The notes under the pieces: generated by a model | What the model saw: the letters and a program-made list of their open reading frames with translations, nothing else | Told to the model about the DNA's origin: nothing | Databases searched by the model: none | Shown: positions 25,653 through 64,000 of the stretch, one piece after another | Layout: the number at the start of each line of letters is the position of its first letter | Numbering within the stretch: the stretch's first letter is position 1 | Made by a program: the position numbers and the translations under genes | NCBI GenBank assembly: GCA_024695445.1 | Contig: JAILIG010000133.1 | Coordinates: 1 to 64,000 of the forward strand | Length of the DNA: 64,000 bases | Direction of reading: 5' to 3' | From: Oscillospiraceae bacterium | GTDB taxonomy: Bacteria > Bacillota > Clostridia > Oscillospirales > Ruminococcaceae

Positions 25653-25681
25653 TTGACATTAAATACCGTTTGTGCTAGAAT
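25653..25681 (+). promoter_or_regulatory. Promoter of the AraC-type regulator
   Basis: TTGACA, a 17-nt spacer ending in TGTGC, and TAGAAT. The end of the spacer (TGTGC) matches the glutamate synthase promoter. Confidence 0.8.
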
Positions 25682-25689
25682 GGGGACAA

Positions 25690-25738
25690 GGAAAGCAATG
25701 GGGCTGTTCCGCTGAAAAAGGCGGAGCAGCCCTTTTTT
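25690..25738 (+). promoter_or_regulatory. Leader with hexaloop hairpin overlapping a terminator (ANTAR-type)
   Basis: Hairpin GGAA-AGC [AATGGG] GCT-g-TTCC (25690-25710) has a six-base loop with A at 1 and G at 4. Its 3' arm is part of the 5' arm of an intrinsic terminator: GGGCTG-TT-CCGC / GCGG-AG-CAGCCC, then TTTTTT (25701-25738). The two structures exclude each other, so binding of an ANTAR protein to the first would allow read-through into the regulator gene 24 nt downstream. Only one hexaloop hairpin is visible; known targets usually have two. Confidence 0.6.
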
Positions 25739-25761: not shown

Positions 25762-26523
25762 ATGAAACTGCATATTCTGGCAGCAGATTCCGGCGAAGGC
25801 AGCGCGAGAAATCTGAAAAACCTCCTCTCTGTTCTGGAGGACACCGATTTTGCGGTCAGCAGATACACGACAAACCTCAATGAAGCGGTGAGTCTGGTGC
25901 TGAGCCGTCAGTTTGATATTCTCCTGTGCATCAACCGTGCGCCGGAATACATCGCTGCAAAGCTGCTGCGGCTGACCGGCGGCACCGAGCGCCGGATTCC
26001 CGCCATCATTCTCAGTGAGCAGGACGATTCCCAGCGGATGCGCGAATGCTTTCTGCTCGGCGCGATCGACTTCCTTTCCGAGCCGATTCCGCCGGAGGAT
26101 CTGATTTCTGCACTTTCCAGAGCCGCCTCCGTGATCCATGAGCAGCTCATTGACTCGGAATATCATGCGGCAGCGGAGGAGGCACTTTCCGTTCTGCCGC
26201 AGTCGGAGGAGCTCCGGCCGATTCTCGAAAAGCTGAGTGCCTTCCTGCAAAAAATGGAGCACCAGACCGCGACGGTCGAGCTGGCAGCGGATTATTTCAG
26301 CTTCAACCGCGACTATTTCGGGCGGTATTTCAAGAGTAAATTCGGTATGACCTTCGGCGATTTCTACAAGAGCTTTCAGATTAGCTACGCCAAGCGGCTG
26401 CTCGAAACCGGGCAGTTCAAGGTTCTGGAGGTCAGCCGGCTGCTCGGCTTTTCCACGCCCGATTATTTCACGCGGGTATTCAAAAAGCACACGGGCTCCG
26501 TGCCGTCTGCCGTCAGGAAATGA
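25762..26523 (+). CDS. AraC-type response regulator with degenerate receiver
   Basis: AAAGGAGGG stands 5 nt before the ATG at 25762, so the longer ORF in the track is rejected. Residues 1-125 follow a receiver fold but lack the phosphorylated Asp ('FDILLCINRAP' instead of 'D.VLLDI.MP') and the conserved Lys ('FLSEPI'). Residues 155-253 form an AraC-family double helix-turn-helix ('ELAADYFSFNRDYFGRYFKSKFG', 'VLEVSRLLGFSTPDYFTRVFKKH'). It therefore likely responds to something other than a histidine kinase. It converges on another receiver-like gene and precedes gdhA. Its leader is a candidate antitermination site. Confidence 0.88.
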   Translation: MKLHILAADSGEGSARNLKNLLSVLEDTDFAVSRYTTNLNEAVSLVLSRQFDILLCINRAPEYIAAKLLRLTGGTERRIPAIILSEQDDSQRMRECFLLGAIDFLSEPIPPEDLISALSRAASVIHEQLIDSEYHAAAEEALSVLPQSEELRPILEKLSAFLQKMEHQTATVELAADYFSFNRDYFGRYFKSKFGMTFGDFYKSFQISYAKRLLETGQFKVLEVSRLLGFSTPDYFTRVFKKHTGSVPSAVRK

Positions 26524-31606: not shown

Positions 31607-31635
31607 TTGACAAATCTTTCACAATATGCTATACT
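31607..31635 (+). promoter_or_regulatory. Promoter of amt
   Basis: TTGACA, the 17-nt spacer AATCTTTCACAATATGC, and TATACT. Spacer and boxes are almost identical to the glutamate synthase promoter at 57068-57096. Confidence 0.85.
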
Positions 31636-31653
31636 GTAATCAGAACAGCAAAG

Positions 31654-31684
31654 GGGCTGCGGAGAGATTGAACATCCGCAGCCC
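31654..31684 (+). other. Upper hairpin in the amt leader
   Basis: A 10-bp perfect stem GGGCTGCGGA / TCCGCAGCCC with an 11-nt loop, extended by AGAAC / GTTCT flanks. No T-run follows directly. It may stabilise the 5' end of the leader RNA. Confidence 0.55.
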
Positions 31685-31694
31685 GTTCTGTTTG

Positions 31695-31774
31695 TTGCAA
31701 AGCGCATTGCAGAAAAAAAGCGAAACGCACAATGGGGTGCATGATGCTGAAAGCTCAGCTCATGCCCCCTTTTT
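31695..31774 (+). promoter_or_regulatory. amt leader: two hexaloop hairpins plus terminator (ANTAR-type antiterminator)
   Basis: Hairpin P1 is TTGCAA [AGCGCA] TTGCAG (31695-31712). Hairpin P2 is GCAC [AATGGG] GTGC (31727-31740). Both loops are six bases with A at 1 and G at 4. The 3' arm of P2 is the 5' arm of an intrinsic terminator: GGGG-t-GCATGA-t-GCTGA [AAGC] TCAGC-TCATGC-CCCC followed by TTTTT (31734-31774). This is the arrangement described for ANTAR response-regulator targets in nitrogen genes. Translation starts 27 nt after the terminator. Confidence 0.72.
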
Positions 31775-31800: not shown

Positions 31801-33540
31801 ATGCAGGAAATGTTGCAGACTGTGGACAGCGAGATCTTTGCGGTCTGGTTTTTGATCGGCGCAGCGCTCGTGTTCTTCATGCAGGCGGGCTTTGCGATGG
31901 TCGAGACGGGCTTTACCCGTGCGAAAAACGCTGCCAACATCATTATGAAAAACCTGATGGACTTCTGTATCGGAACCCCGATGTTTGTCCTGATCGGCTT
32001 CGGGCTGTTTCTGGGAGAAGACCTCTGCGGACTGATCGGCAAGCCCGGCTTCGATGTGTTTACCGCTTACGAAAGTTTTGACTGGTCGAATTTCGTGTTC
32101 AATCTGGTGTTCTGCGCGACCGCCGCAACGATTGTTTCGGGCGCGATGGCAGAGCGCACCAAGTTCCTTTCCTATTGTGTGTATTCCGGCATCATCAGCG
32201 CGCTGGTCTATCCGATTGAAGCGCACTGGATCTGGGGCGGCGGCTGGCTCAGTCAGCTCGGCTTCCACGATTTTGCAGGCTCTTGCGCGATTCACATGGT
32301 CGGCGGTATCTCCGCACTGATCGGCGCAAAGATTCTGGGACCGCGTATCGGCAAGTTCAGCAAGAAGTCTGACGGCAGTGTGCAGCCGAATGCAATTCCC
32401 GGCCACAACCTGACGCTCGGCGCACTGGGATGTTTCATCCTCTGGTTCGGCTGGTACGGCTTCAACGGTGCGGCATGTACGAGCACCGGCCAGCTGGCAT
32501 CCGTCTTTGTCACGACGACGATCGCGCCGGCGGTTGCAACCGTCACCTGTATGATCTTCACATGGGTGAAGTACGGCAAGCCTGATGTTTCGATGTGCCT
32601 GAACGCATCGCTGGCCGGTCTGGTCGGCATTACGGCGGGCTGCGATGTCATGGATGTTGCCGGTGCCGGCATCGTCGGCATCGTCTCCGGCTTGCTGGTC
32701 TGCTTCGGTGTGTGGCTGCTCGACTATGTGCTGCATATTGACGATCCGGTCGGTGCAGTCGCCGTCCACATGATGAACGGCATCTGGGGCACGCTTGCGG
32801 TCGGCCTGTTTGCGACGACATCTGCGCCTGCAAACGAAACCATGACCGGTCTGTTCTACGGCGGCGGCTTTGCGCTGCTGGGCAAGCAGCTGCTCGGCTT
32901 TGTGTCGGTTGCCGGCTGGACGGCCGTCACGATGACCGTTGTGTTCCTGGCCATCAAGCATACCATTGGCCTGCGTGCAACGGAGCAGGAGGAAATCCTC
33001 GGCATGGACGCGACGGAGCACGGTCTGGTCAGCTCCTATGCAGACTTTATGCCGGCGATGAACGAGGCCGCGATTGCGGGCTATGTCAAGGGCGATGCCA
33101 AGCGTGTTGAGCAGGTCCCGGCAGCAGAGGCGGTCCCGGTCGAGAACAACATCCCGAACGATGTCAAGGCACCGAAGATGACCAAGATTGCGGTGGTGTT
33201 CAATCAGGAGAAGCTGCATCACTTCATTCACGCGATGGAGCGCATCGGCATCACGGGCGTGACGGTCACAAATGTCATGGGCTGCGGCATCCAGAAGTCG
33301 AACAGCTATTACCGCGGCGCGAAAATGAGCGCGACGCTGCATCCGAAGATCAAGGCAGAAATCGTTGTCTGCAAGGTGCCGGTCGATACCGTTGTGAAGA
33401 CGGCGCGTGAGGTGCTGTATACCGGTCAGGTCGGCGACGGCAAGATCTTCATTTATCCGGTGGAAAAGGTCATCAAGGTGCGGACGGGTTCCGTGAACTA
33501 TGATGCACTCCAGAGTGAGGAGCTGCCGGAAGCAAATTAA
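31801..33540 (+). CDS. amt: Ammonium transporter with fused C-terminal P-II domain
   Basis: Residues 1 to about 425 form an Amt channel with the typical 'QAGFAMVETGFTRAKNAANI' first helix, 'AHWIWGGGWL' and 'VHMMNGIWGTLAVGLFA'. After a linker, residues 460-579 are a complete P-II (GlnB/GlnK) protein ('GITGVTVTNVMGCG', 'GDGKIFIYPVEKVIKVRTG'). The T-loop has 'YYRGAKM', with Met where GlnB has the uridylylated Tyr51, so control must come from ATP/ADP/2-oxoglutarate binding rather than uridylylation. The ATG at 31801 has GAGGAGAG upstream; the earlier start in the track lies inside the terminator. Fusion places the gate regulator on the channel itself. Confidence 0.95.
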   Translation: MQEMLQTVDSEIFAVWFLIGAALVFFMQAGFAMVETGFTRAKNAANIIMKNLMDFCIGTPMFVLIGFGLFLGEDLCGLIGKPGFDVFTAYESFDWSNFVFNLVFCATAATIVSGAMAERTKFLSYCVYSGIISALVYPIEAHWIWGGGWLSQLGFHDFAGSCAIHMVGGISALIGAKILGPRIGKFSKKSDGSVQPNAIPGHNLTLGALGCFILWFGWYGFNGAACTSTGQLASVFVTTTIAPAVATVTCMIFTWVKYGKPDVSMCLNASLAGLVGITAGCDVMDVAGAGIVGIVSGLLVCFGVWLLDYVLHIDDPVGAVAVHMMNGIWGTLAVGLFATTSAPANETMTGLFYGGGFALLGKQLLGFVSVAGWTAVTMTVVFLAIKHTIGLRATEQEEILGMDATEHGLVSSYADFMPAMNEAAIAGYVKGDAKRVEQVPAAEAVPVENNIPNDVKAPKMTKIAVVFNQEKLHHFIHAMERIGITGVTVTNVMGCGIQKSNSYYRGAKMSATLHPKIKAEIVVCKVPVDTVVKTAREVLYTGQVGDGKIFIYPVEKVIKVRTGSVNYDALQSEELPEAN

Positions 33541-54791: not shown

Positions 54792-54874
54792 AAAGTGTAA
54801 CCCTTCCGATGTGAAACCGGTCTGGTGAAATAGAACAGGTACCGTTCCAATCAGGCAGAAAGGAAGTGAACACC

Positions 54875-55432
54875 GTGACCGATGAAGCGATCATCTCTTT
54901 GCTGGAGCACCGCGACGAGCGCGCACTGCGTGCCATTGAACGGCAGTACGGCGGCGCAGGACGCAATATCGCAGCGCAGATCCTCGGCAGCGAGGAGGAC
55001 GCGCAGGAGGCCTTTCAGGACACGCTCCTGCGGCTCTGGAATGCGATTCCGCCGGAGCGCCCGGAAAATCTGTTTTCGTATCTCTGCACCGTGCTGCGCC
55101 GCATCTCTTACAACAAGCGCGAAAAGCAGATTGCGGAGAAGCGCGGCGGCGGTCAGAGGGCGCTCGTGCTGGATGAGCTGGCGGAGGTCACGGCAGACAG
55201 CCGGAATGTGGAGGACATCCTCTCGGCGCGTCTGCTCGGCGAAGCGGTCAACGGGTTTCTTGCCGGATTAAAGCCCGATGCGCGCTCCGTGTTTATTCAG
55301 CGGTACGGCAATCAGCGGTCTGTCGCCCAGATTGCGGAGCTGTATGAAATGTCTGAGAGCAAGGTCAAGGTCACGCTGATGCGGACGCGCAAAAAGCTGC
55401 GCGCATACTTAAAAAAGGAGGGCTTGTTATGA
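54875..55432 (+). CDS. ECF-type RNA polymerase sigma factor
   Basis: This is a 185-residue sigma-70 family protein. Region 2 is visible as 'GSEEDAQEAFQDTLLRLWNAI' and region 4 as 'RYGNQRSVAQIAELYEMSESKVKVTLMRTRKKL'. The start is taken as GTG at 54875, which has AAAGGAAG at normal spacing; GTG 54866 is too close. The stop overlaps the next gene, the presumed regulator of this sigma factor. Confidence 0.92.
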   Translation: MTDEAIISLLEHRDERALRAIERQYGGAGRNIAAQILGSEEDAQEAFQDTLLRLWNAIPPERPENLFSYLCTVLRRISYNKREKQIAEKRGGGQRALVLDELAEVTADSRNVEDILSARLLGEAVNGFLAGLKPDARSVFIQRYGNQRSVAQIAELYEMSESKVKVTLMRTRKKLRAYLKKEGLL

Positions 55433-56802
55433 AGGAGCAGGAGCTTCTGCACGCAATTCAGAATGCAGACCGGAAGTATTATGAGGAAGCTCAGGCGCGG
55501 ATTCATCATCGGAAGGAGAACAACACTATGAGAACAACTGTCATTCGCCGGATCCTGTCCGGCACGGCCGTTGCAGCGATGCTGGCCGTGACCGCGATGT
55601 ACGGCGCGAAAATTTACCGTGCCGGTTCGGATAACCGGATCGTCAACACCGTACCGGGAAGCGCTGCAGGCGTGCAGACGACGGAGCCGGGAAGCGCACC
55701 CGATGTGCAGACCGAAGAATTCAGCGGGGAAAATTTCCTCGGCGGACAGGGCAGGCTGCACAGCTCCCGGATGGGAAAGATTATGTACGACAGCGACAAC
55801 TGGTATTTTTCGCCCGGCTATTCTGCAAAGATGACAGCGGATGCCGGAATCAGGCTGAACAAAACCAATCCGGCCGGCGGGGGCATTCTGGCGGAGCACG
55901 AGAGTTATCTGACGGACAGTGCCAACGGCGCGCTGTATGTCAATGATACCGATACCGGCGCGGTCTATGCGCTGGACGATGCTGGCAGCAGGACGCTGCT
56001 GAACGGTTCCGCACAGCAGGCCGTTCCCGGTCAGAGCATTCATATTCAGCGCATCCTGCGCCTGACCGATACCAAGTATTATGTGGACGGCTGGCTCTTC
56101 ACGGATGGCTGGGAGAATGCCTCTGAGTTCTGGCGGATCATCGACACCGCTTCCGGCACATCGGTCCGCGGCGATGCGGAGATGCTCTGCTTTGACCGGA
56201 TTTACTCCGACGGCGATGCGGGCGTATATACCGTGCTGTGGAACGGTGATGCGGAAACGGGAAATTTTGCACTCGGACATATTACCGAGGAAAAGACGGA
56301 GATCGTGATGAATGAGTGTCCGCGTGGCTACGGCTGGTATATCTATGACAACTGCGTGTATTACCGCGTGCCGGAGGGCTGCGAGGGGTACCGGGATTTC
56401 ATGAAGTACGACCTCGCAACCGGCGAAAGGACGGTTCTGGAGAAGGACTGCGGCTATGAGCAGATCGTGCTCTGCGGCGACACCGTCTATACGCAGATGA
56501 ATGCGGAGCAGAACCGGACAGAGGCACATATCGTTACCTTCAAGCCCGACCTGACCGACAAAAAGGAGATGACATTTGCCTATCCGGAGAAGATACAGAG
56601 CGCAAGCGCCGTATATCTCATTGATGTCTGCGGGGATACGCTGGTTTTCGATGTGTTAGGCGGAAAAAAAGATCAGGAGACGCTGCCGGATATCAGCAGC
56701 TCCGATACTGCAGTGTGGGATCCGTATTATTTGCTCTGCCGCATGGATACCGGAGCCATGCAGACATTCACCCTCGATCACGGACAGGATGCAGGGAAGT
56801 AA
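55429..56802 (+). CDS. Membrane protein with extracellular beta-propeller-like domain, likely anti-sigma partner
   Basis: The 457-residue product begins with about 33 cytoplasmic residues ('KEQELLHAIQNADRKYYEEA'), has one membrane helix ('GTAVAAMLAVTAMYGAKIY') and a large extracellular domain. That domain has repeats of the DUF5050 or propeller type ('GALYVNDTDTGAVYALDDAG', 'NCVYYRVPEG', 'DTVYTQMNAE'). Translational coupling to the ECF gene and the short cytoplasmic helix suggest an anti-sigma factor that senses something outside, such as polysaccharide. No classical zinc anti-sigma motif (HxxxCxxC) is present. Confidence 0.78.
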   Translation: MKEQELLHAIQNADRKYYEEAQARIHHRKENNTMRTTVIRRILSGTAVAAMLAVTAMYGAKIYRAGSDNRIVNTVPGSAAGVQTTEPGSAPDVQTEEFSGENFLGGQGRLHSSRMGKIMYDSDNWYFSPGYSAKMTADAGIRLNKTNPAGGGILAEHESYLTDSANGALYVNDTDTGAVYALDDAGSRTLLNGSAQQAVPGQSIHIQRILRLTDTKYYVDGWLFTDGWENASEFWRIIDTASGTSVRGDAEMLCFDRIYSDGDAGVYTVLWNGDAETGNFALGHITEEKTEIVMNECPRGYGWYIYDNCVYYRVPEGCEGYRDFMKYDLATGERTVLEKDCGYEQIVLCGDTVYTQMNAEQNRTEAHIVTFKPDLTDKKEMTFAYPEKIQSASAVYLIDVCGDTLVFDVLGGKKDQETLPDISSSDTAVWDPYYLLCRMDTGAMQTFTLDHGQDAGK

Positions 56803-57067: not shown

Positions 57068-57096
57068 TTGACAAATCTTTCACAATGTGCTATAAT
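57068..57096 (+). promoter_or_regulatory. Consensus promoter of the glutamate synthase operon
   Basis: TTGACA, the 17-nt spacer AATCTTTCACAATGTGC, and TATAAT: perfect boxes and spacing. The spacer differs from that of the amt promoter by one base. Confidence 0.93.
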
Positions 57097-57108: not shown

Positions 57109-57168
57109 ATGAACAAAGGCGTTCATCCGGAACACGGACTCCGTGTCTCCGGGTGGACGCTTTTTTTG
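57109..57168 (+). promoter_or_regulatory. Glutamate synthase leader: hexaloop hairpin overlapping a terminator (ANTAR-type)
   Basis: Hairpin ATGAAC [AAAGGC] GTTCAT (57109-57126) has a six-base loop with A at 1 and G at 4. Its 3' arm is the base of an intrinsic terminator: GCGTTCATCCGGA / TCCGGGTGGACGC, a 13-bp stem around an inner ACACGG-CCGTGT hairpin, followed by TTTTTTT (57119-57167). The two folds exclude each other. The leader is so short that no first hexaloop hairpin is visible before it. Confidence 0.65.
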
Positions 57169-57188: not shown

Positions 57189-58283
57189 ATGATCCCACTC
57201 GAAGGTCAGGTGCGCATTCCGTCCGGCTGCGCGGTATCTGCGATGATCTCCCGCGACGGCAGACGCATGAACGGCGAACGCATCATCGAGAGCATGGTGC
57301 CGATGCACGACCGCTCCAACGGTCTCGGCGGCGGCTTTGCCGCATACGGCATCTATCCGGAATACCGCGACTTTTACGCGCTGCATATTTTCTTCAGCAG
57401 CCGCAGCGCACAGAGCGCGTGCATGACGCTGCTGAAGGAGTATTTCGAGATCGTGCAGGACGAGCACATCAAGGTGCGCAAGATGCCGCAGATCACCGAT
57501 GAACCGATTATCCGGCGCGTGTTTGTCTCGCCGATGCAGTCGGTACTGCGGCATTTGCAGATCGACGAAAAGGAACTCGTCGTGCGTGTCGTCAACCGCA
57601 TCAACGCGCAGTCGGACGGCAGCTATGTCTTCTCCTGCGGCAAGAATATGGGCGCGTTCAAGGCAGTTGGCTTCCCGGAGGATGTCGGCAGATACTACCG
57701 CCTCGAAGAATACGATGCCTACTGCTGGACGGCGCACGGCCGGTACCCGACAAATACGCCCGGCTGGTGGGGCGGCGCGCATCCGTTCTGTATGCTCGAT
57801 TATTCGATCGTCCACAACGGCGAAATCTCCAGCTATGACGCCAACCGCCGCTTCATTGAGATGTACGGCTACAAATGTACCTTGCAGACCGACACCGAGG
57901 TCATCACCTATATCGCGGACTACCTGCTCAGACGGCAGGGACTGACGCTCGACGAAATGGCTGCGGTCATTGCGGCACCGTTCTGGTCCACGATCGAAGG
58001 AAAATCCGGTGCGGACCGCGAGAAGTACACCTATCTGCGCACGGTCTTTCCGAGCCTGCTGGTGACCGGTCCGTTCTCGATCATTCTCGGTTTTGACGGC
58101 GGCCTCATGGCGCTCAACGACCGCCTGAAGCTGCGTTCGATGGTGGTCGGCGAGCAGGACGACATGGTCTATATCGCAAGTGAGGAGGCCGCAATCCGCG
58201 TCATGGCGCCGGAGATCAAAAACATCTGGTCGCCCGCCGGCGGCGAGCCGGTCATCGTTCGGGTAAAGGAGGGAGCATTTTGA
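57189..58283 (+). CDS. Glutamate synthase amidotransferase subunit (GltB1-type)
   Basis: The 364-residue class II glutamine amidotransferase releases ammonia from glutamine for the synthase. A short propeptide 'MIPLEGQVRIPSG' precedes the catalytic Cys ('CAVSAMISRDGRRM'), followed by 'DRSNGLGGGFAAYGIYPEYRDFYALH' and 'RYPTNTPGWWGGAHPF'. This is the stand-alone form known from archaea and Clostridia. The ATG at 57189 has AGGAGG upstream; the start in the track lies in the terminator. Next come GltB2, ferredoxin, FAD oxidoreductase and GltB3. Confidence 0.93.
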   Translation: MIPLEGQVRIPSGCAVSAMISRDGRRMNGERIIESMVPMHDRSNGLGGGFAAYGIYPEYRDFYALHIFFSSRSAQSACMTLLKEYFEIVQDEHIKVRKMPQITDEPIIRRVFVSPMQSVLRHLQIDEKELVVRVVNRINAQSDGSYVFSCGKNMGAFKAVGFPEDVGRYYRLEEYDAYCWTAHGRYPTNTPGWWGGAHPFCMLDYSIVHNGEISSYDANRRFIEMYGYKCTLQTDTEVITYIADYLLRRQGLTLDEMAAVIAAPFWSTIEGKSGADREKYTYLRTVFPSLLVTGPFSIILGFDGGLMALNDRLKLRSMVVGEQDDMVYIASEEAAIRVMAPEIKNIWSPAGGEPVIVRVKEGAF

Positions 58284-59776
58284 ATTTCTATCCGGAATTT
58301 GAGGTCGTGCGCAGTGACAGCCGGTGTATCCGCTGCCGCGTCTGCGAACGCCAGTGCGCCAATGAAGTACACTGGTACGATGCCGACGGCAAGGTCATGC
58401 TCTCCGACGAATCGAAATGCGTGAACTGTCAGCGGTGTGTGACGCTCTGTCCGACCAGAGCGCTGAAGATTGTCAAGAGCGACTGCCGCCTGCGCGAAAA
58501 CGCCAACTACTCCGATCAGACGATCAAGGAGATCTACCGGCAGGCGGAGACCGGCGGCGTGCTGCTGTCGTCTATGGGAAATCCGAATCCGCTGCCGGTC
58601 TACTGGGACCGGATCCTGATTAACGCTTCGCAGGTGACCAATCCGCCGATTGATCCGCTCAGAGAACCGATGGAAACCCGTGTGTCGCTCGGCAAAAAGC
58701 CCGATCACATCACGAGAAACCCGGACGGCTCGATCGACACGAAGCTGCCGCCGCAGCTGACGCTCAGTATGCCGGTGATGTTCTCGGCGATGAGCTACGG
58801 CTCGATCAGCTACAATGCACACGCTTCGCTTGCCAGAGCGGCATCCGCGCTCGGCATTTACTATAACACCGGCGAGGGCGGTCTGCACGAGGATTTCTAT
58901 CAGTACGGAAAGAACACGATCGTGCAGGTTGCGTCCGGACGCTTCGGTGTCCACAAGGACTATCTCGAAGCGGGCGCGGCCATCGAAATCAAGATGGGAC
59001 AGGGCGCAAAGCCCGGCATCGGCGGACATCTGCCCGGCACGAAGGCGGTCGGGGATGTCTCCAAGACACGCATGATTCCGGAGGGCAGCGATGCGATTTC
59101 GCCGGCACCGCATCACGATATTTATTCGATCGAGGATCTGCGGCAGCTTGTGTATTCGCTCAAGGAGGCGACGGAATACCGTCTGCCGGTGATCGTCAAG
59201 GTCGCGGCGGTGCATAACATCGCGGCGATTGCAAGCGGCATTGCGCGCTCCGGTGCGGATATCATCGCAATCGACGGCTTCCGCGGCGGCACGGGTGCGG
59301 CTCCGACCAGGATCCGTGACAATGTCGGCATCCCGATTGAGCTGGCGCTTGCGGCGGTCGATAAGCGGCTCAGAGATGAGGGCATCCGCAACAATGTTTC
59401 GATCATCTGCGGCGGCTCGGTCCGCTCGGCGGCGGATGTGGTCAAGGCAATCGCACTCGGCGCGGATGCGTGCTACATCGCAACGGCAGCCTGTCTTGCC
59501 ATGGGATGTCATCTCTGCCGGAGCTGCCACACGGGCAAATGCAACTGGGGCATTGCAACGCAGCGTCCCGATCTGGTCAAGCGCCTGAATCCCGATATCG
59601 GCTCGCAGCGGCTCATCAATCTGATGGACGCATGGCGGCATGAAATCAAGGAGCTGATGGGCGGCATGGGCATCAACTCGATCGAAGCACTGCGCGGAAA
59701 CCGGCTGATGCTGCGCGGCGTCGGGCTGACCGAAAAGGAATTGCAGATACTTGGCATTTCTCATGCCGGCGAGTGA
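58280..59776 (+). CDS. Glutamate synthase FMN/Fe-S subunit (GltB2-type)
   Basis: The 498-residue protein begins with a two-cluster ferredoxin-like domain ('CIRCRVCERQC', 'CVNCQRCVTLCPTRA'). It continues into the FMN-binding glutamate synthase barrel ('SAMSYGSISYNAHASLARAA', 'IIAIDGFRGGTGAAPTRIRDNVG') and ends with the Cys cluster 'CHLCRSCHTGKCNWGIATQ' for the 3Fe-4S centre. It makes glutamate from 2-oxoglutarate and ammonia. The start is TTG overlapping the stop of the amidotransferase gene, with AAAGGAGGG upstream. Confidence 0.95.
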   Translation: MNFYPEFEVVRSDSRCIRCRVCERQCANEVHWYDADGKVMLSDESKCVNCQRCVTLCPTRALKIVKSDCRLRENANYSDQTIKEIYRQAETGGVLLSSMGNPNPLPVYWDRILINASQVTNPPIDPLREPMETRVSLGKKPDHITRNPDGSIDTKLPPQLTLSMPVMFSAMSYGSISYNAHASLARAASALGIYYNTGEGGLHEDFYQYGKNTIVQVASGRFGVHKDYLEAGAAIEIKMGQGAKPGIGGHLPGTKAVGDVSKTRMIPEGSDAISPAPHHDIYSIEDLRQLVYSLKEATEYRLPVIVKVAAVHNIAAIASGIARSGADIIAIDGFRGGTGAAPTRIRDNVGIPIELALAAVDKRLRDEGIRNNVSIICGGSVRSAADVVKAIALGADACYIATAACLAMGCHLCRSCHTGKCNWGIATQRPDLVKRLNPDIGSQRLINLMDAWRHEIKELMGGMGINSIEALRGNRLMLRGVGLTEKELQILGISHAGE

Positions 59777-59791
59777 AGCGGGGGCGTACAT

Positions 59792-60235
59792 ATGAAACGA
59801 ATCTATGTCAGGGAAGAATGGTGCCTCGGGTGCCATCTGTGCGAATATAACTGCGCATTTGCCAATTCCGGTATGACGGATATGGTCAAGGCGCTGCGCG
59901 GGAAAACAATCTATCCGCGCATTCAGGTCGAGACGGACGAAAACGGCGTAACCTACGCGGTCTCCTGCCGGCACTGCAAGGATCCGGTCTGCGTGAAAAG
60001 CTGCATTGCCGGCGCGATCTCCCAAAAGGACGGCGTCATCGAAATCAATCATGACAAATGCGTCGGCTGCCTGACCTGCGTGCTGGTATGTCCCTACGGC
60101 GCGGTGGTCGAGGACGGCAGCGGCGTCGCGCAGAAATGTGAGCTGTGCATGAAAAATGCCTGCGGTGCGCCGGCCTGTGTCAAGGGCTGTCCGAACGGCG
60201 CGATTGTGTATGAGGAGCGGGGTGAACGGGAGTGA
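59792..60235 (+). CDS. Polyferredoxin, electron carrier of the glutamate synthase
   Basis: The 147-residue protein has four Cys clusters ('CLGCHLCEYNC', 'CRHCKDPVCVKSC', 'CVGCLTCVLVCPYG', 'CELCMKNACGAPACVKGCP') in the DMSO-reductase beta-like order, enough for four 4Fe-4S centres. It lies between GltB2 and the FAD oxidoreductase and should pass electrons between them. Confidence 0.92.
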   Translation: MKRIYVREEWCLGCHLCEYNCAFANSGMTDMVKALRGKTIYPRIQVETDENGVTYAVSCRHCKDPVCVKSCIAGAISQKDGVIEINHDKCVGCLTCVLVCPYGAVVEDGSGVAQKCELCMKNACGAPACVKGCPNGAIVYEERGERE

Positions 60236-61470
60236 AAAGGTATATCATCATCGGAAACGGCGTTGCCGCGGCAGGCTGTATCGAGGGCATCCGCTCGGTC
60301 GATGCGGAGGGCAGCATCACGGTCATCTCCGCAGAGAATCATCCCGTATACTGCCGCCCGCTGATTTCGTATTATCTCGAACAGAAAACCGATCTGAAGC
60401 GGATGCAGTACCGCGCAGATTCCTTTTACGCGGATCATCATGTGAATCTGGTCTGCGGCAGATCGGCCGCGGAGATCCGCGCAGAGGAAAAGGAGATCGT
60501 TCTGGACAACGGCGACAGCTTCTCCTACGACGCCCTCTGCTGCTGCACGGGCTCTTCACCGTTCGTGCCGCCGATGACGGGGCTTGACACCGTGGAAAAC
60601 AAGTTCAGCTTCATGACGATCGACGACACGCTTGCACTCGAACAGGTGATTACGCCGGATTCCCGCGTGCTCATCATCGGCGCCGGACTGATCGGCCTGA
60701 AATGTGCGGAGGGACTGCACGGCCGCGTCAAGAGCATCACGGTCTGTGATCTGGCGCCGCGTGTCCTCTCGTCGATTCTCGATGACAAATGCGCCGCGAT
60801 GATGCAGAAGCATCTCGAAGCAAACGGCATTTCGTTCCTGCTCGGCACGAGCGCAAAGGAATTCAGCGGAAATCATGCCGTCATGCAGAACGGTGCAGAA
60901 GTTGATTTTGATGTGCTGGTGCTGGCCGTCGGTGTGCGCGCCAATACCGCACTGGTAAAGAATGCGGGCGGAGCTGGCGGCCGCGGCATCGCGGTCAGTG
61001 ATGCGTGTGAAACCTCTCTGCCGGATATTTACGCCGCAGGTGACTGTACCGAGTATCACGACATTTCGTCAGATACGGTCAAAGTCATGGCGCTGATGCC
61101 GAATGCGTATATGCAGGGGCATACGGCGGGCGTCAATATGGCAGGCGGCAGCGCCGTATTCGACAATGCGATCCCGATGAACTCCATCGGCTTTTTCGGG
61201 CTGCACTGTCACACTGCCGGCAGTCAGCCGGAGGGCTGTGAGATGTACGAGGAGGCGGATGAACAGCATATCAAGCGGCTGTTTATCAAGGACGACAGGC
61301 TGACCGGATTCATGCTGATCGGACAGATGCACCGGACGGGAATCTATACGGCGCTGATCCGCAGTCAGACGCCGCTGTCGTCGGTGGATTTCGCACGCCT
61401 GAAAATTGAGCCGCAGCTCGCGGCCATGGGCCGTGCGTACCGTGACAAAGTGCTGAAAGGAGCGGTCTGA
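60232..61470 (+). CDS. NAD(P)/FAD-dependent oxidoreductase of the glutamate synthase operon
   Basis: The 412-residue pyridine nucleotide-disulfide family protein has the FAD motif 'IIIGNGVAAAGCIEGIR' at the N-terminus, the NAD motif 'VLIIGAGLIGLKCAEGL' in the middle and the second FAD motif 'PDIYAAGDCTEY'. There is no redox-active Cys pair. It takes the place of GltD (small subunit) and would feed electrons from NAD(P)H to the ferredoxin. Start overlaps the ferredoxin stop by 4 bp. Confidence 0.92.
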   Translation: MKRYIIIGNGVAAAGCIEGIRSVDAEGSITVISAENHPVYCRPLISYYLEQKTDLKRMQYRADSFYADHHVNLVCGRSAAEIRAEEKEIVLDNGDSFSYDALCCCTGSSPFVPPMTGLDTVENKFSFMTIDDTLALEQVITPDSRVLIIGAGLIGLKCAEGLHGRVKSITVCDLAPRVLSSILDDKCAAMMQKHLEANGISFLLGTSAKEFSGNHAVMQNGAEVDFDVLVLAVGVRANTALVKNAGGAGGRGIAVSDACETSLPDIYAAGDCTEYHDISSDTVKVMALMPNAYMQGHTAGVNMAGGSAVFDNAIPMNSIGFFGLHCHTAGSQPEGCEMYEEADEQHIKRLFIKDDRLTGFMLIGQMHRTGIYTALIRSQTPLSSVDFARLKIEPQLAAMGRAYRDKVLKGAV

Positions 61471-62193
61471 ATGGAACTGAATGTATCGGCAATGGGCTTT
61501 TCCGAGGTCAATGAGCAGATGCGGCAGACAGCGGACCGCGAAATCACGCTGACGGGCTGCATCGGGCAGCGCTTTCTTGCAGCCGGAACCGGCGGCAAAT
61601 ATGTGAAGATCTGCGGCATCGCCGGAAACGCCCTCGGCGCGTACCTCAACGGCACGGTCATCGAGACCTTCGGCAATGCACAGGACGCAGTCGGCGACAC
61701 GATGAATGCGGGCGAGATCATCGTTCACGGCAACATCGGCGATGCGGCAGGCTACGCGATGCGCGGCGGAAAAATCTTCGTGCAGGGGAATGCCGGATAC
61801 CGGGCGGGCATCCACATGAAGGCCTATCAGGAGAAGGTGCCGGTCATGGTCATCGGCGGCAGGACCGGCAGCTTCCTCGGAGAATATCAGGCGGGCGGCA
61901 TCATCATCGTGCTGGGACTTTCCGGCGGGGAAAAGCCGATCGTCAGCAATTTCCCCTGCACCGGAATGCACGGCGGAAAGCTGTTTCTGCGGTCGGACTG
62001 CGCAGGCATTCACTTCCCGCATCAGGTGCATCACCGCATCGCCTCTGCGGACGAGCTGGAGGAAATCCGCCCGCATATCGCGGAATACTGTGCGCATTTC
62101 GGCGGCGATCCCGATGAGATTCTGAATGCACCGTTCACGCTTGTGACGCCGGACAGCGGCAACCCCTATCAGCAGATGTATGTAGCGAACTAA
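61471..62193 (+). CDS. Glutamate synthase GXGXG domain subunit (GltB3-type)
   Basis: The 240-residue protein is the beta-helix domain found at the C-terminus of full-length GltB. Repeated Gly patterns are seen: 'GCIGQRFLAAGTGGKYVKICGIAGNALGAYL', 'NIGDAAGYAMRGGKIFVQGNAGYRAG'. It directly follows the oxidoreductase stop with no gap. This completes the five-gene split glutamate synthase. Confidence 0.93.
   Translation: MELNVSAMGFSEVNEQMRQTADREITLTGCIGQRFLAAGTGGKYVKICGIAGNALGAYLNGTVIETFGNAQDAVGDTMNAGEIIVHGNIGDAAGYAMRGGKIFVQGNAGYRAGIHMKAYQEKVPVMVIGGRTGSFLGEYQAGGIIIVLGLSGGEKPIVSNFPCTGMHGGKLFLRSDCAGIHFPHQVHHRIASADELEEIRPHIAEYCAHFGGDPDEILNAPFTLVTPDSGNPYQQMYVAN

Positions 62194-64000
<1,807 letters not shown>

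Follow-up and report, generated by a model that had tools for sequence, protein, structure and literature searches.

How can a single hexaloop hairpin, placed at the very 5' end of a glutamate synthase leader, act as the target of an ANTAR antitermination protein when such targets are described as pairs of hairpins? The question arises from a 64,000-nucleotide stretch of DNA (hereafter, the window), part of a 95.7-kb contig from a fragmented Oscillospiraceae/Ruminococcus-like genome. Nitrogen genes under ANTAR antitermination have been described, among them glutamate synthase genes and a Desulfotomaculum nitrogen regulon (PMC3369931), and surveys of ANTAR-responsive RNAs have demanded two stem-loops (PMC3369931, PMC8164766), so that they would miss a class with one hairpin. 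The requirement of EutV for both hairpins in vivo (PMC3369931) counts against a one-hairpin reading. EutV nevertheless binds one hexaloop, the ANTAR dimer gripping a single loop; the same study left open the need for two hairpins, called for searches for single-hexaloop sites, and proposed that such sites might exist where the transcribing polymerase sets no time limit (PMC8934654). We conclude, with a probability of roughly 0.8, that the gltB1 leader is a nitrogen-controlled ANTAR-type attenuator with one 5'-terminal hexaloop hairpin, bound by the ANTAR protein of its own operon.

The leader and the operon behind it comprise the following features.

57068-57096, + strand: sigma-70-type consensus promoter TTGACA-17-TATAAT, from the sequence; at a near-fixed distance in 73 relatives
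57109-57126, + strand: single hexaloop hairpin ATGAAC[AAAGGC]GTTCAT, putative ANTAR (NitR-type) antiterminator, from sequence, conservation and covariation
57115-57167, + strand: intrinsic terminator, from folding; hexaloop and hairpin 3' arm together make up its 5' arm, and T7 lies at 57161-57167
57189-58283, + strand: gltB1, class-II glutamine amidotransferase part of glutamate synthase, with the Shine-Dalgarno sequence AAGGAGGAG upstream
58280-59776, + strand: gltB2, glutamate synthase
59792-60235, + strand: Fe-S protein, glutamate synthase
60232-61470, + strand: FAD oxidoreductase, glutamate synthase
61471-62193, + strand: gltB3, GXGXG-type, glutamate synthase
62206-63810, + strand: pyrG
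from 63807, + strand: purF, running past the window end (64000)
contig 65247-66506, outside the window: glnA
contig 66506-67096, 3 kb past the window end: ANTAR gene, which follows glnA directly and closes the gltB1 operon

The glutamate synthase gene behind the leader is in three parts (gltB1, gltB2, gltB3). As stated in a preliminary description of this DNA, a perfect consensus promoter stands ahead of the hairpin (TTGACA at 57068-57073, a 17-nt spacer, TATAAT at 57091-57096). The position of the -10 box puts the predicted +1 at about 57103, taking the start 7 nt past the box, and the hairpin, with its loop at 57115-57120, begins about 6 nt past this +1 and 12 nt past the -10 box, in agreement with the claim that it is the first structure of the RNA. 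That description also saw the hairpin 3' arm as the foot of a terminator with T7, which holds, and gave the stem 13 bp; the uninterrupted outer helix is slightly longer, at 17 bp with A-U pairs to the U-tract included. The terminator fold, from A57115 to U57164, has an energy of -35.7 kcal/mol (z = -7), and the isolated hairpin with its flanks about -8 kcal/mol; hairpin and terminator share sequence, so they are mutually exclusive by overlap. Glutamine riboswitches (glnA RNA, Downstream-peptide) likewise provide RNA control of glutamine and nitrogen genes; an Rfam scan of the whole window found no family above its gathering score, these included, and the 18-nt hairpin is to our knowledge too small for any known aptamer. 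At 54866-56802, immediately ahead of the region with the gltB1 promoter, lie a gene for an ECF-type sigma factor and then one for a 457-aa protein without a Pfam match.

Chance would give about one perfect 6-bp A1/G4 hexaloop hairpin on each strand of 64 kb, and three and two were seen; since a lone hairpin of this kind is not rare, the significance of the one at gltB1 rests on its combination with promoter and terminator overlap and on comparison. We fetched 80 GltB1 relatives, mostly from Oscillospiraceae, Lachnospiraceae, Christensenellaceae and uncultured Clostridia, and scanned 78 gltB1 leaders, the window's own among them. The succession of promoter, 5'-terminal hairpin and overlapping terminator is kept in 73 of the 78. 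Loop positions A1, A2 and G4 are invariant in all 73 (AAAGGC in 53, AAAGGT in 9, AAGGGC in 5, and a few others); the A1 and G4 already remarked on in the window's loop, on whose conservation the ANTAR assignment had been made to depend, are therefore fixed. Across 52 diverse leaders, 99.4% of cells at the six stem positions are paired and 70 changes are two-sided; the 6 bp score 0.616 for covariation, where shuffles give 0.25 and slid controls 0.04-0.16. Conservation and covariation together rule out a chance hairpin. The same operon and leader also occur on a contig labelled Sphaerochaetaceae (L082), by horizontal transfer or mis-binning.

A scan of all fetched loci required a promoter, a hexaloop and a terminator overlapping it, but left the loop letters free; of its 125 candidates, 115 have [AG]ANG[GA]N loops. 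Many of these precede other genes and have different stems, as in AAAGGC[AANGRC]GTCTTT and AACAGC[AACGGC]GCTGTT, where the loop is kept although the stems are unrelated. Stems thus vary among regulon members (ATGARC, AAAGGC, AACAGC) around the same loop type, and an A1/G4 hexaloop is present in nearly all of them.

Could the loop be conserved merely because it supplies an ordinary terminator with its A-tract and first G-C pairs, the hairpin itself regulating nothing? When 106 leaders were folded as terminators, loop positions 1-6 paired with the terminator 3' arm or the U-tract in 81-97 of them, as this explanation would have it. We nonetheless consider it very improbable. In 25 of the 106 folded terminators loop position 1 is unpaired, and every time it is A; position 2, when unpaired, is A in 17 of 17, whereas position 3, when unpaired, takes all four bases (T7 A6 C4 G1). 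The terminator partner of G4 is C in 69 leaders and U in 28; position 4 is never A in this set, which was chosen with G at that position, and A there is absent also from the 125 candidates of the loop-unconstrained scan. That A1 and A2 stay A while unpaired, and that G4 is kept opposite U, indicates a constraint on the loop bases themselves, fitting protein recognition, and rules out terminator pairing as the sole reason for keeping the loop. Moreover, the 5' arm, mostly dispensable for the terminator, covaries with the 3' arm.

The preliminary description held that there is no room for a first hairpin and proposed a minimal, one-hairpin class of antiterminator, a proposal that a start site further upstream, bringing in a normal first hairpin, would have contradicted. 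In the 106-leader set the distance from the predicted start (-10 box + 7) to the outer pair of the hairpin is 1-9 nt, most commonly 2, and the elements conserved upstream are the -35/-10 pair, spaced 17-18 nt; with the promoter conserved and so small a gap, a P1 hairpin plus linker does not fit. In the window no second A1/G4 hexaloop hairpin was found at dual-motif spacing beside the gltB1 hairpin by a scan that is not exhaustive, its stricter version having missed the positive control; the same type of scan finds both hairpins of that control, the eut leader between eutW and eutA in locus L172 (GGAGTAC[AATGAA]GTACTCT and GGC[AAAGAA]GCC). No dual motif turned up in the eutP loci that were scanned, and filtering on T5 yielded nothing. 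Our start sites are predicted from promoter sequence, which leaves a slim chance, a few per cent, that transcription starts further upstream and takes in the first hairpin of a normal dual-hairpin ANTAR target; on promoter geometry, with the eut leader as positive control, we reject a P1 that was simply missed. Compared with the dual stem-loop ANTAR-target family (PMC3369931), the gltB1 leader has the A1/G4 hexaloop and the terminator overlap but one hairpin in place of two. The best reading is that it works like an ANTAR target and represents a widespread single-hexaloop, 5'-terminal variant. Conservation, geometry and the ANTAR gene in the operon lend the proposed minimal class support at the level of sequence. 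Outside this clade, the glnA-ANTAR relatives (loci L165-L178) likewise have single AANGRC hexaloops, further from the likely -10 box.

The ANTAR gene of the gltB1 operon encodes the sole ANTAR domain in this genome. Among relatives with at least 7.3 kb downstream, an ANTAR gene is present in 46 of 49 gltB1 loci, and glnA lies immediately upstream of it in 48 of 49. We surveyed genomes with a promoter-plus-hairpin model, R1, counting strong matches only, because under about 30 bits ordinary promoters score as well and R1 by itself loses specificity. An ANTAR domain occurs in 36 of 38 strong-motif genomes versus 100 of 196 genomes overall in the same class (Fisher p = 2e-10, a value that does not describe independent events because the sampled genomes are related). 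Two motif genomes lack ANTAR (G038, G195), and direct protein search found no ANTAR protein in them either; in each, the contig ends within the gltB1 operon. Motif and ANTAR occur together in one genome from a different class. Against the one-hairpin reading, more than 60 sampled ANTAR genomes gave no R1 match, and some of those inspected have single hexaloops placed less 5'-terminally.

The protein has the receiver-ANTAR architecture, with a C-terminal PF03861 domain (53.5 bits, cut-off 27.3), and matches EutV, Rv1626 and AmiR by sequence and by model (pLDDT 95). Its receiver is degenerate: the phosphoacceptor Asp is replaced by Asn in 56 of 58 gltB1-linked members, which makes control by phosphorylation unlikely. 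Of the EutV RNA contacts listed in PMC8934654, where Y164 stacks on G4, the gltB1-linked family keeps K149, E160 and M172, has K143R and K147R, and carries I/L at R142, H at Y164, E at R168, for the most part C at R175, and S/T at R177. AmiR too has His at the EutV Y164 position. From this comparison the G4-binding pocket appears largely present. The protein is NitR-like, probably a homologue of NitR of C. saccharobutylicum. In place of phosphorylation, the neighbouring glutamine synthetase would be a natural candidate sensor, by analogy with AmiC-AmiR and with GS-TnrA in Bacillus (PMC6316151).

The altered contacts invite another explanation, in which the ANTAR gene is a mere neighbour and the hairpin is recognised by a different RNA-binding protein or by RNA polymerase. 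Its 5'-terminal position resembles that of RNAs that act on polymerase directly, such as HK022 put, a 5' antiterminator RNA acting on RNA polymerase itself. We regard this as unlikely, if less remote than the alternatives above, because the A1/G4 hexaloop is an ANTAR signature (PMC3369931), and because motif and ANTAR gene keep company across operons and genomes, including the motif genome of another class. Under the preferred reading, recognition by the operon's ANTAR protein, the loop and the hairpin 3' arm would by default be drawn into the stable terminator, stopping transcription about 60 nt from the start and keeping gltB1-gltB2-gltB3-pyrG-purF-glnA-ANTAR untranscribed. When nitrogen is short, the ANTAR protein would bind the hexaloop through A1 and a flipped-out G4 and hold the hairpin folded, so that polymerase reads through. 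The product of glnA, the gene directly upstream of the ANTAR gene, may serve as sensor instead of phosphorylation; like the binding and the antitermination, the direction of the nitrogen signal is one that we infer. The same loop on different stems would bring into one regulon GSIII, glutamate dehydrogenase and the ammonium transporter, together with asparagine synthetases and some genes for purine and NAD synthesis. In many Clostridia of gut and rumen, the genes for ammonium assimilation have a hairpin at the 5' end of their RNA, most likely caught by an ANTAR protein that the same operon encodes. The wider proposal is more tentative, at slightly less than even odds: that a large natural single-hexaloop ANTAR class extends across Clostridia, the 5'-terminal position replacing P1 and the signal passing from glutamine synthetase to a pseudo-receiver.

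AmiR of Pseudomonas aeruginosa is an ANTAR protein whose receiver is degenerate. It shares with the gltB1-linked protein this degeneracy, the His at the Y164 position and, as proposed here, control by a partner protein rather than by phosphorylation; its partner, however, is AmiC and not glutamine synthetase, and the amiE leader, unlike that of gltB1, is described as dual-hairpin (PMC3369931). EutV/EutW of the Enterococcus faecalis eut system (PMC3369931, PMC8934654) likewise has a receiver-ANTAR protein, nitrogen-related genes and an A1/G4 hexaloop hairpin that contributes its 3' part to the 5' base of an intrinsic terminator. It differs in having two hairpins, where the gltB1 leader has one at the RNA 5' end; in its loops, AATGAA and AAAGAA in the eut leader found here against AANGG(C/T) in gltB1-type leaders; and in its receiver, the gltB1-linked one lacking the phosphoacceptor Asp. 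NitR is the ANTAR protein of C. saccharobutylicum (Stutz et al. 2007) to which PMC6316151 attributes GS/GOGAT antitermination on nitrogen limitation, the control of GS/GOGAT genes that we propose for the gltB1 system. Relative to NitR as known here through PMC6316151, the additions are the single 5'-terminal hexaloop, its covariation and a wide regulon. On a single-hexaloop class our literature search found only PMC8934654; the primary NitR paper lay outside that search and may describe related leaders. In contrast to the proposal of PMC8934654, single hexaloops occur in gltB1-type leaders with the polymerase time limit present. A natural system with one hairpin, whose terminator is built in, whose regulator is a single gene and whose regulon is defined, brings the need for two hairpins within direct experimental reach.

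Judged from sequence, the leader is the rule for a whole regulon rather than a single oddity. In the sampled genomes, motif matches precede genes for GSIII, GSI, glutamate synthase (both split and full-length forms) and glutamate dehydrogenase, for asparagine synthetases B and A, NAD synthase and SAICAR synthetase, and for adenylosuccinate synthetase and a CobQ-type amidotransferase. For Clostridia of gut and rumen, this suggests one shared logic of ammonium assimilation, covering GS, GOGAT, GDH, ammonium uptake and glutamine-using enzymes. On the contig itself, further leaders and their genes are the following.

31607-31740, + strand: leader of an Amt-PII fusion, with a promoter at 31607-31635 and two tandem hexaloop units
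31646-31659, + strand: unit 1, CAGC[AAAGGG]GCTG, overlapping its own terminator
31727-31740, + strand: unit 2, GCAC[AATGGG]GTGC, overlapping its own terminator
31801-33540, + strand: ammonium transporter/PII fusion gene behind the tandem leader, with one promoter
25653-25738, + strand: probable weaker member, with a promoter at 25653-25681, AGC[AATGGG]GCT at 25694-25705 and a terminator
25762-26523, + strand: receiver-AraC regulator gene behind the weaker AATGGG leader
contig 67144-67236 (L002:12144-12236), outside the window: GSIII leader, with its own promoter and AACAGC[AACGGC]GCTGTT inside a 12-bp terminator stem

The AGC[AATGGG]GCT stem extends beyond a bulged G. The GSIII gene immediately follows the ANTAR gene, and its leader holds the second strong hexaloop. 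Tandem complete units, each with its own terminator, recur in some regulon leaders, for example L106; in L106 and L110 a second hexaloop hairpin stands about 40-50 nt past the first, as a separate unit. At L045:2241-4823 (minus strand), a gene with a PPDK_N domain (PEP synthase-like), unexpected for a nitrogen regulon, lies behind a 5'-terminal hexaloop leader.
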